A stretch of 46,255 bases of DNA from Minisyncoccota bacterium (GTDB lineage: Bacteria; Patescibacteriota; Minisyncoccia; UBA6257; 2-01-FULL-56-20), in assembly GCA_025449695.1 (NCBI GenBank), contig JANWIW010000018.1, positions 1 through 46,255 on the forward strand, given 5' to 3'. Below the pieces are notes generated by a model, which worked only from the letters and a program-made list of their open reading frames with translations, was not told the origin of the DNA and did not search any database. Below are positions 4,372 to 26,835 of the stretch, piece after piece. Numbering within the stretch: the stretch's first letter is position 1; every line of letters starts with the position of its first letter. Made by a program: the position numbers and the translations under genes.

Positions 4372-5058
4372 ATGCCGGTCGCAAGATATTTCCGCAAAGA
4401 CTTCTTTGATACATGGACCCCGGAGATGGCATACATCCTCGGTTTCATGTTCGCGGACGGGGCAGTATGGCGCGGGAAGAGGGGAAATTGGTTTTTCGCT
4501 TTTTACTCCAATGACCTGGAGATCATAAAAACCATAAAATCCGTCCTGGAATCGGAGCATAAAATAGGGGTTAAAAGGCGGTCAAGCGAAGAGCATCCCA
4601 ACTGGCGGACCGGTTATTTGCTTCAGATTGGGAGTAGGATGTTATGCCAAAGATTGGCTACCCTTGGCGTTACGCAGAATAAAAGTCTGACGATGACCTT
4701 TCCGATCGTACCTCTCGAACTAATCGGTGATTTTACCCGGGGGTATTTTGACGGCGATGGCAGTGTGAACTTCGGGAGGTATTGGCGCAAAGACCGTAAC
4801 CAATGGAAATATCAACTTACGGTCAACTTTACTTCAGGTAGCAAAGCGTTCTTGGAAGGATTGTTTCACGCTGTTCGTAGTTACACGAACGGCGGCAGGA
4901 TTGGCATTAAAAAACGAGGATACGAACTCGTATTCGGCCGCCATGATTCGGTTGCATTATATAGGTTAATGTATAATAATGTCCCCGCGGGACTTTTTCT
5001 GAATCGCAAACTTGCGATCTTTCGGAGAGCGTTCCAAAAACTTCATCTGCGGCCGTAG
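4372..5058 (+). CDS. LAGLIDADG homing endonuclease overlapping tRNA-Asp
   Basis: A 228-aa protein with two LAGLIDADG motifs, LGFMFADG at residues 23-30 and RGYFDGDGSV at 123-132. This is the monomeric two-motif arrangement, and both carry the catalytic acidic residue. Such proteins make site-specific DNA breaks that drive intron homing; some act as maturases. It is AT-richer than its neighbours, a sign of mobility. It does not lie inside the group I intron of the following tRNA but directly upstream of that tRNA. Its last codons CGG-CCG-TAG are nucleotides 2-10 of tRNA-Asp. Start ATG 4372 is likely but not certain; in-frame GTG 4339 and 4348 are alternatives. TATACT lies directly before the ATG. 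Confidence 0.9.
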   Translation: MPVARYFRKDFFDTWTPEMAYILGFMFADGAVWRGKRGNWFFAFYSNDLEIIKTIKSVLESEHKIGVKRRSSEEHPNWRTGYLLQIGSRMLCQRLATLGVTQNKSLTMTFPIVPLELIGDFTRGYFDGDGSVNFGRYWRKDRNQWKYQLTVNFTSGSKAFLEGLFHAVRSYTNGGRIGIKKRGYELVFGRHDSVALYRLMYNNVPAGLFLNRKLAIFRRAFQKLHLRP

Positions 5059-5332
5059 CTCAATTTGGTTAGAGCACCGCCCTGTAGATAACCCTGCAGC
5101 TCCGAAAAGAAATTTTCGGATGAACATTCCGGGATAACGGTGAAGGCTAAGTTCGAAAGAATACGCTAATACCGTGGGAACCTCAGGATCGCGCGATCCG
5201 AGGAGCGCCGTAGAGACTAGATACCGGAGCGCCTAAGTTCGCGAGAATAAGGCGAAGATATAGTCCACTCCTTTATGAAAGTAGAGGATAAGTGCACGGC
5301 GGGGGTTGCCGGTTCAAGTCCGGTCGGCCGCG
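5049..5332 (+). tRNA. tRNA-Asp(GTC) interrupted by a group I intron
   Basis: 5' exon 5049-5085 and 3' exon 5295-5332 join to a 75-nt cloverleaf. Acceptor GCGGCCG/CGGCCGC, D stem GCTC/GAGC, anticodon stem CCGCC/GGCGG, loop CTGTCAC with anticodon GTC, T stem GCCGG/CCGGT, discriminator G. CCA is not encoded. The intron lies between positions 35 and 36 in the anticodon. The first 10 nt are also the end of the LAGLIDADG gene. A perfect terminator hairpin follows at 5341. Confidence 0.93.
5086..5294 (+). ncRNA. Group I intron in the tRNA-Asp anticodon loop, 209 nt
   Basis: Core elements are visible. P1: exon CTGT (5082-5085) pairs with GCAG (5096-5099), giving the required U-G pair at the splice site. 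P2: TCCGAAAA/TTTTCGGA. P4: ACGGT/ACCGT. R element GACTAGA (5215-5221) and S element AAGATATAGTCC (5255-5266) form P7 (GACTA/TAGTC). P8: CGCCT/AGGCG. The last intron base is G5294. The intron contains no ORF. Self-splicing is inferred from these motifs. Confidence 0.9.
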
Positions 5333-5340
5333 CTGAGGGG

Positions 5341-25885: not shown

Positions 25886-25888
25886 TCG

Positions 25889-25961
25889 TGCCGGCGGCAG
25901 GAATCGAACCTGCGACCTAGGGCTTATGAGTCCCTCGCTACTACCACTGAGCTACGCCGGC
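25889..25961 (-). tRNA. tRNA with CAT anticodon (elongator Met or Ile2)
   Basis: 73-nt cloverleaf with perfect acceptor GCCGGCG/CGCCGGC, T arm GCAGG-TTCGATT-CCTGC, loop CTCATAA and discriminator A. Two stem mismatches are seen (13-22 C-T, 31-39 A-G). G1-C72 rules out the initiator class; Met or lysidine-modified Ile cannot be separated by eye. CCA is not encoded. Its first 10 nt are the end of the overlapping 25952-26647 gene. Confidence 0.88.
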
Positions 25962-26647
25962 ATTTGGACGGATAGATTGTATACCAGGCCATGCGTTAAG
26001 CCAAGTATGCGTCGCTGTAAATCCGAACATTTGCGGACACGCAAGGCCAGTGTTCCTAAATGCACATCATAGTTTTCATACACCTTTTTATTTTTTGTTT
26101 TTATGAAAATGGTCTTACGAAACTGTTCTAATGGAATGTGTAGCAATTCTGACCAACGCAGACTTACTGCAATAGTACGTGGCTGATGTATATCGTTTAT
26201 TAATATACGGCAGTACATATCGGAGCGTGACACTCCGAAACAAAGTTCCAGCCACCGTATAATGAACATCACGAAATCGGGGTTTGAATTCGTAAACTGA
26301 AACGTATCATCGCTCTTCCTTCCCTCTCCCATGTACAAGCCCAATCCTACAAGCAGAAGATTGTTAATCGTTATATGTCCGATTTGGGAAATTCCTTTTT
26401 GCTTCAACTCTTCGATTCTGTGCAACTTGCGCTCTCTCTGAGAGCGCGCCCCTATCAATCTTCCCCTATATCCGTGGGTTAATTTGCGCATATCTAGGGC
26501 GGCAACCTGCTCTGGCGACAAAATTATTTCTTCGCACCAGTGGCTGACAGAACTTTTCGAGACACCCAATTGCTTCGCGATCACTTTAATGCTTTCTCCT
26601 GCCCTGCGCATCGCCCGTGCTTTGACTCGTTCCTCGGATTTGGCCAT
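25952..26647 (-). CDS. HTH plus LAGLIDADG-like protein overlapping a tRNA gene
   Basis: A 231-aa protein. Residues about 14-40 form a helix-turn-helix (AGESIKVIAKQLGVSKSSVS). After a basic linker, GLGLYMGEG (101-109) and FTNSNPDFVMFIIRWL resemble a single LAGLIDADG-type homing-endonuclease domain. It may be a DNA-binding endonuclease or a derived regulator; catalysis is not proven. It is AT-richer than its neighbours. Its stop TAG is nucleotides 8-10 of the CAU tRNA, and its last 18 or so codons contain that tRNA's promoter. ATG 26647 is chosen because MAKSEERVKA starts a normal HTH domain; GGAGG is nearby but only 1 nt from the ATG. A TTG start at 26719 is possible. Confidence 0.8.
   Translation of the reverse strand: MAKSEERVKARAMRRAGESIKVIAKQLGVSKSSVSHWCEEIILSPEQVAALDMRKLTHGYRGRLIGARSQRERKLHRIEELKQKGISQIGHITINNLLLVGLGLYMGEGRKSDDTFQFTNSNPDFVMFIIRWLELCFGVSRSDMYCRILINDIHQPRTIAVSLRWSELLHIPLEQFRKTIFIKTKNKKVYENYDVHLGTLALRVRKCSDLQRRILGLTHGLVYNLSVQMPA
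25976..26004 (-). promoter_or_regulatory. CAU-tRNA promoter embedded in the overlapping ORF
   Basis: On the minus strand TTGGCT (25999-26004), 17-nt spacer, TACAAT (25976-25981), ending 15 nt before tRNA position 1. It falls inside the last codons of the HTH/LAGLIDADG-like gene. Confidence 0.6.
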
Positions 26648-26762
26648 ACCTCCATTTTCCGTTGTCCCGGCAATTCCGCAAATTTTGACCTTGGGGATTG
26701 CGCGAGGTACAATAAGCAACGCTTGCCTCGCGGCAAGCTCTTCTTATGGAAGGAGGGCTTAC

Positions 26763-26835
26763 CGCGGGGGGCTGGGAATGGTTTCCCGGGGAGCCCCATA
26801 AGCTTTCGAAGCCGGTTCGATTCCGGCCCCCGCAA
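26763..26835 (+). tRNA. Degenerate or divergent initiator-like tRNA (CAT)
   Basis: T arm GCCGG-TTCGATT-CCGGC and acceptor CGCGGGG/CCCCGCA give a C1-A72 mismatch, the hallmark of bacterial initiator tRNA. D stem TGGG/CCCG and anticodon stem GGAGC/GCTTT around CCCATAA give a CAT anticodon. Unusual: C33 instead of U33, no three G-C pairs in the anticodon stem, no U8, and three bases between acceptor and D stem. An alternative fold uses GCGGGGG/CCCCCGC with a 4-bp T stem. It is followed by the same 3' module as other tRNAs here, which supports a real tRNA locus; it could also be decaying. GCTTGCC-TCGC-GGCAAGC lies upstream (26721-26738). Confidence 0.5.

Follow-up and report, generated by a model that had tools for sequence, protein, structure and literature searches.

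tRNA genes are usually seen as landing sites of integrases at their 3' ends. A free-standing endonuclease gene among tRNA genes is known from phage T4, where segB, of the Seg/Mob intronless homing genes, is inserted between tRNA-Arg and tRNA-Ile and encodes a GIY-YIG enzyme whose target is the tRNA intergenic region (PMC2988022). SegB is the nearest analogue of the gene analysed here, but it is phage-borne and lies in a tRNA cluster, whereas we describe a large family of helix-turn-helix (HTH)-LAGLIDADG genes of cellular chromosomes, placed at tRNA 5' ends and divided into isoacceptor clades, with open reading frames (ORFs) ending inside the tRNA. The concept of collaborative (trans) homing, of free-standing endonucleases together with introns, is also described (PMC2988022, PMC3984707). 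It resembles our case in that at some loci an endonuclease gene stands next to a tRNA carrying a group I intron; it differs in that most family members have no intron partner, and the target here is presumed.

At the protein level the closest enzyme is I-DmoI, which matches the LAGLIDADG domain best in both profile and fold, the Glu at the catalytic position included. I-DmoI is intron-encoded and has two LAGLIDADG motifs, whereas the gene here is free-standing and encodes a single motif with an HTH at the N-terminus. Another intron-encoded endonuclease reportedly targets a tRNA gene, the same kind of target, but is encoded by the intron itself. WhiA, a LAGLIDADG-derived regulator, has LAGLIDADG and HTH modules in common with our protein; in WhiA the LAGLIDADG part comes first, the HTH is C-terminal and the catalytic acid is lost, whereas here the order is reversed and the catalytic Glu is kept. 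Neither an integrase nor the att duplication of a tRNA 3' end that marks integrase-type tRNA elements accompanies the gene: the insertion consists of one gene of ~0.7 kb and nothing else. A search of an open-access literature library yielded no account of endonuclease genes that are isoacceptor-specific and abut tRNA 5' ends in cellular genomes, and the family, its tRNA niche and the nuclease convergence described below appear undescribed.

The gene at tRNA-Met and its predicted protein

The window (the whole 46,255-nt stretch of DNA analysed, from a Minisyncoccota bacterium) carries a minus-strand gene that, according to a sequence-only reading, stops at U8-A9-G10 of a tRNA(CAU) and contains a promoter-like TTGGCT-17-TACAAT in its last codons. 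The stop coordinates proved exact and the promoter-like element is present as described (Table 1), and its promoter score of 12.0 ranks near the top of those listed for members. The open frame reaches TTG 26719 (ORF 25952-26719, 255 aa), but the family profile begins at ATG 26647, which is therefore the likelier start. Rather than lying inside an intron, as a group I intron-encoded ORF does, this ORF precedes an intact, intronless tRNA-Met. The divergent CAU tRNA gene on its other side is missed by ARAGORN at default settings and has an atypical D arm and no U8; a close homologue at another locus (L133) is called tRNA-Met by ARAGORN, and the gene is possibly an initiator tRNA.

A companion case in the window, an ORF whose TAG coincides with nt 8-10 of tRNA-Asp, was confirmed as well. 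The intron of that tRNA (5076-5287) matches the Rfam model Intron_gpI with 45.1 bits (E=2e-10), just below the gathering score. The two genes are of different LAGLIDADG families, with a LAGLIDADG_3 protein encoded at tRNA-Asp and one that has no LAGLIDADG match in Pfam at tRNA-Met.

Table 1. Positions of the genes, protein domains and tRNAs in the window
Feature	Position	Strand	Basis and remarks
HTH-LAGLIDADG gene	25952..26647	-	231 aa from ATG 26647; translation, family profile start, AF2 model (pLDDT 95.7)
N-terminal HTH, residues 4-37	26537..26638	-	Pfam HTH_38, 2e-6; AF2 helices 4-15, 20-27, 31-37
Single LAGLIDADG domain, residues 91-228	25964..26377	-	I-DmoI by profile and fold; motif LGLYMGEG
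E108 in LGLYMGEG	26326-26324	-	invariant in 54/54 relatives
Promoter-like TTGGCT-17-TACAAT in the gene's last codons	25976..26004	-	sequence; TTGGCT 26004-25999, TACAAT 25981-25976, 17-nt spacing; 14 nt 5' of tRNA-Met
Gene/tRNA overlap, 10 nt	25952..25961	-	sequence; TAG stop 25954-25952 = tRNA-Met nt 8-10
tRNA-Met(CAU), intact, intronless	25888..25961	-	ARAGORN; Rfam tRNA, 63.6 bits
Second CAU tRNA gene, divergent	26764..26833	+	116 nt 5' of the gene's ATG; 36.8 bits with the Rfam tRNA-Sec model (under the gathering score)
LAGLIDADG_3 gene	4372..5058	+	sequence; TAG end = nt 8-10 of tRNA-Asp; Pfam LAGLIDADG_3, 7e-10
tRNA-Asp(GTC), anticodon loop split by group I intron 5076-5287	5049..5333	+	ARAGORN with introns

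Pfam and NCBIfam recognised the HTH and no family in the C-terminal domain of the tRNA-Met gene product. The AF2 model comprises the HTH at the N-terminus, a helix of 44 residues and one alpha-beta-beta-alpha-beta-beta-alpha domain. No PDB match was significant in Foldseek by itself, I-DmoI emerging after realignment and by profile; thus, the LAGLIDADG assignment is based on motif, profile and fold combined. All top 15 realigned Foldseek candidates were LAGLIDADG enzymes (14 I-DmoI entries and the PhoVMA intein endonuclease domain), with Z of 7.0-7.6 and 2.4-4.0 Å over 78-89 residues, values of Z below 8 that taken alone are middling; the best was I-DmoI (Z 7.6, 2.7 Å over 86 residues). An independent sequence profile matched I-DmoI (E=8e-4) over the motif with its catalytic Glu. 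The acidic residue that closes the motif was invariant in the 54 relatives and was replaced by D or Q in 2/16 of a diverse set. The protein thus has both marks of the LAGLIDADG superfamily, the fold and the acidic residue at the motif end, and from its sequence and model we infer a site-specific nuclease.

Placement of the family beside tRNA genes

The genome of the window (983 kb, 37 contigs) holds four copies of the gene, all of them beside tRNAs (Met, Lys, Ala and Arg/Pro), and in 20 relatives 17 of 20 members adjoin a tRNA. Within the class, the family is carried by 62 of 142 genomes in up to nine copies per genome; 111 distinct ORFs were read, 107 of them full-length. Adjacency was defined as an ORF end lying -20 to +60 nt from the 5' end of a same-strand tRNA, and control ORFs were taken from 400 kb of arbitrarily chosen other sequence of the same class. 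By this measure 85/107 full-length members were adjacent, against 1/282 control ORFs (Fisher p ~1e-63), so that the enrichment of such ORFs at tRNA 5' ends, for which the sequence-only reading had suggested looking, is very large. At least six further class members (L004, L014, L016, L025, L026, L039) precede tRNAs interrupted in the anticodon loop, by a matched group I intron in five of them and by an ARAGORN-fitted intron in L014.

Beyond the class, a phylum-wide sample contained the family in 52/192 genomes; 23 of its 27 loci were adjacent to a tRNA and the remaining four precede interrupted tRNAs. An independent search by protein similarity alone returned 80 named loci, mostly Patescibacteria of many groups. 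In named genomes, 57/89 fell within the -20 to +60 interval and about nine more overlap the tRNA deeper. All eight Streptomyces and Streptacidiphilus loci lie 7-27 nt upstream of tRNA-Gln(TTG). Of five relatives from viral contigs, three are directly followed by a tRNA on the same strand, and an annotated phage collection queried with this one protein held no relatives. Most of the sequences are metagenome assemblies, and the Streptomyces members include isolates.

Some placements count against a tRNA-homing reading. In a few members (e.g. L090, L095, L098, L101) no tRNA follows the 3' end, and in five mirrored members (L019, L073, L074, L054, L060) a tRNA-Val(TAC) or tRNA-Glu(TTC) lies immediately upstream. 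In two of the mirrored members, L054 and L060, the gene is followed by a fragment from the 3' part of a tRNA. In one genus, four relatives from the Gln clade (L164, L166, L160, L171) have no tRNA at all and are kept at one orthologous place; these are possibly tamed proteins.

Where the ORFs stop

Among the 85 adjacent class members, 25 end at -10/-11, 17 at -15/-16 and 43 between 0 and +57; overlaps of -21 and of -38 to -42 occur elsewhere. The stops correspond to tRNA nt 8-10 (UAG), 13-15, 19-21 or 36-38 (CAU-AA of tRNA-Met), or lie a few nt before the tRNA, and nt 13-15 serve where UAG is absent from nt 8-10 or where the frame is a different one. The gene body extends to the mature tRNA 5' end and then to the first in-frame stop, for which U8-A9-G10 is the commonest. 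The overlap of 10 nt shared by the two genes of the window, which the sequence-only reading had taken as meaningful, is therefore uninformative, being merely the first in-frame stop in most tRNAs, and its idea that the conserved UAG is specially borrowed does not hold for a family in which many members end just before the tRNA or deeper inside.

Its further suggestion, a tRNA promoter embedded in the gene, held in part. Capture of the promoter function by the gene's 3' end is clear in the window gene and suggested by deletions in Streptomyces (below), but enrichment is weak family-wide. A general embedded promoter was accordingly rejected: the mean score was 4.27 versus 3.61 for synonymous shuffles (z 3.6), with 25% versus 20% above threshold.

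Fidelity of protein clades to tRNA isoacceptors

A tree of the 107 proteins, with 85 tips labelled by 18 anticodon states, required 18 changes of anticodon, one above the minimum possible of 17. Shuffled labels required 62 +/- 2 changes, with a minimum of 54 in 1000 shuffles. Members grouped by their tRNA for Met, Lys(CTT), Gln(TTG), Ala(GGC), Val(GAC), Ile(TAT), Gly(TCC), Trp and Arg(GCG), as did most Gly(GCC) members. This fidelity of one isoacceptor per clade had not been predicted from the window. On its simplest reading, each protein would recognise the tRNA gene beside which its own gene lives.

Filled and empty sites

Alleles with and without the gene, the comparison by which the sequence-only reading had proposed to check its claim, were found at the same site in relatives, as expected of a homing gene that stands outside introns and inteins. 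The spacer between a divergent tRNA-Arg(CCT) and tRNA-Ala(GGC) measures 73 bp in genome G123 (L177) and 56 bp in G080, while in G026 (L174) it measures 776 bp with an Ala-type gene inside, and in G143 (L175), a congener of G026, it holds an Arg-type gene on the opposite strand. Likewise, the tRNA-Gln regions of the congeners G099 and G023 differ by one gene of ~0.7 kb, inserted in front of the tRNA and behind an upstream gene that both have in common.

In Streptomyces, the syntenic tRNA-Gln locus was present in 41/41 sampled genomes and the gene in 19 of 30 read. Gene-less alleles keep approximately the last 20 codons of the gene (CGTCGCATCGAAGG, TACGGCATAGTG) before the tRNA, and we read this as gene loss that was probably halted by a tRNA promoter overlapping the gene's 3' end. 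The tRNA at this locus is less conserved than the neighbouring gene (median identity 74% versus 81%), and in five of six sister pairs flanks of 84-93% identity enclose tRNA-Gln alleles of 62-75%. The tRNA allele type required 11 changes on the flank tree versus seven on the gene tree, so the gene and the tRNA allele seem to be replaced together, one pair for another, between species and against a vertically inherited background. Such replacement would fit co-conversion.

Unrelated nucleases at tRNA 5' ends

A search of all tRNA 5' flanks in the collected sequences turned up further endonuclease families. An HNH family, unrelated to the LAGLIDADG one, sits at tRNA-Thr(CGT/TGT) or tRNA-Leu(TAA) in nearly all loci examined (L420-L437), where its genes overlap the tRNA by 7-47 nt or end at most 41 nt short of it; one copy (L420) is in the window's own genome, on contig C25. 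Small GIY-YIG genes of ~80-95 aa precede tRNA-Gln at nine loci (L217, L211, L226, L249, L229, L222, L240, L207, L236). Most of these are themselves preceded by a duplicate of tRNA-Gln nt 1-18/21 and a GC-rich hairpin, as if the gene had inserted into the tRNA-Gln D-loop and the tRNA had been regenerated downstream. At a further locus, L212, the tRNA-Gln 5' fragment is present without a GIY-YIG gene.

The convergence of unrelated nucleases argues that the tRNA gene is a shared niche of homing endonucleases. We consider it reasonably probable that tRNA-anchored homing elements form a general class, in which at least three unrelated nuclease families (HTH-LAGLIDADG, HNH and GIY-YIG) have convergently settled at tRNA 5' ends and keep to particular isoacceptors, in Patescibacteria, in Streptomyces and in some viral contigs. 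By ending inside the tRNA or supplying its promoter, such elements would escape clean loss, and they would drag tRNA alleles between lineages and so drive tRNA gene evolution.

Proposed homing to a tRNA gene and other explanations

With a probability of roughly 0.75, the window gene is a free-standing homing endonuclease gene of an HTH and single-LAGLIDADG family whose home, and most probably DNA target, is the gene of one tRNA isoacceptor. The mobile gene class at tRNA 5' ends that the sequence-only reading had proposed is supported by placement, fidelity and the filled and empty sites, while actual mobility and endonuclease activity are what we infer. In the proposed mechanism, a dimeric protein would cut gene-less alleles in the cognate tRNA gene itself or at its 5' border, and repair from the gene-bearing allele would carry over the gene and with it the neighbouring tRNA allele. 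Since RNase P trims off any leader, a gene may end at or inside the mature tRNA 5' end, which would thus be a safe place for it. Sloppy deletion would be punished because the gene's 3' end or transcript would drive the tRNA. The gene-bearing allele might be immune through its interrupted site, through a changed tRNA allele or, at some loci, through a group I intron in the anticodon loop.

A different role for the same protein would be that of a tamed regulator that binds its own tRNA promoter and controls that tRNA, its location reflecting cis-regulation, as one might imagine from WhiA. The N-terminal HTH, a transcript or promoter probably common to gene and tRNA, and the tRNA-less members conserved at an orthologous place in one genus would suit such a role. 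A regulator is, however, unlikely in view of the patchy presence of the family in class and phylum, the invariant Glu at the catalytic position, the replacement of alleles in Streptomyces, the occurrence of broken gene copies and the similar placement of unrelated HNH and GIY-YIG families. Isoacceptor fidelity and the unusual divergence of the linked tRNA in Streptomyces could also be explained if the nuclease attacked the RNA of the cognate tRNA and the tRNA gene next to it were a resistant allele, the two forming an addictive toxin-immunity pair; in six genomes searched, a second tRNA resembling that of L352 was not found, which would agree. But the LAGLIDADG fold and the HTH are DNA-recognition modules, gene-less Streptomyces alleles share their tRNA type with many gene-bearing ones, and introns in tRNA genes would give the mature tRNA no protection, so that we judge this decidedly improbable.

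Two further accounts concern how the genes came to lie where they do. They could be former group I intron endonucleases, once inside tRNA introns and left outside, that now are co-located with introns or help them. Some clades indeed abut tRNAs carrying group I introns, and a tRNA-Met group I intron in one genome (G014) contains an HNH ORF, but most cognate tRNAs are intronless and the genes sit outside the intron, at the tRNA 5' end, which leaves such an origin little credit. Finally, unrelated small genes might reach permissive pre-tRNA spacers by chance, untargeted. Several endonuclease families occur before tRNAs and tRNA flanks are generally known as insertion hotspots; against this, the background rate was 1/282, one HNH family keeps to Thr or Leu tRNAs in nearly all listed loci, and clade-isoacceptor fidelity is hard to reach passively. 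Passive insertion would not produce the isoacceptor tree, which already contradicts it, and we regard chance as extremely improbable.

If homing to tRNA genes is correct, the tRNA 5' end would house selfish endonuclease genes that overlap the tRNA, with a separate clade for each isoacceptor, and this would account for odd ORFs that overlap tRNAs in Patescibacteria. The family would also supply many natural DNA-binding enzymes with a presumed target readable from context. It would offer a concrete route by which tRNA alleles jump between species and tRNA genes gain remnants and foreign leaders.

Other features of the loci

Two candidate patterns were rejected. Immunity through a changed anticodon stem was hinted at by tRNA-Ala, where the stem CTTCC..GGAAG occurred in 8/21 alleles without the gene and 0/9 with it; Gln (in a search biased to its query), Lys, Gly and Met gave no clear pattern. 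The lack of a consistent stem difference between gene-bearing and gene-less tRNAs counts against homing where the gene-bearing allele has no intron. Had insertion been into the D-loop, a tRNA 5' remnant should precede each member, but only L037 has a clear one, such remnants being regular only for the GIY-YIG genes at tRNA-Gln. In L037 the remnant comprises nt 1-22 of tRNA-Arg(TCT) upstream of the gene, and the intact tRNA-Arg downstream has a different acceptor stem.

At three loci (L301, L314, L344), partial fragments resembling a tRNA 5' part lie between the endonuclease gene and an intact tRNA-Met. At L152 (G014, contig C11), a group I intron with an HNH ORF splits tRNA-Met. GGTTCAA lies shortly before the ATG in several members, which look leaderless. 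In L059, an inverted repeat, TGAACCACG..CGTGGTTCA, lies upstream of the ATG around the gene's own promoter and is a possible operator.
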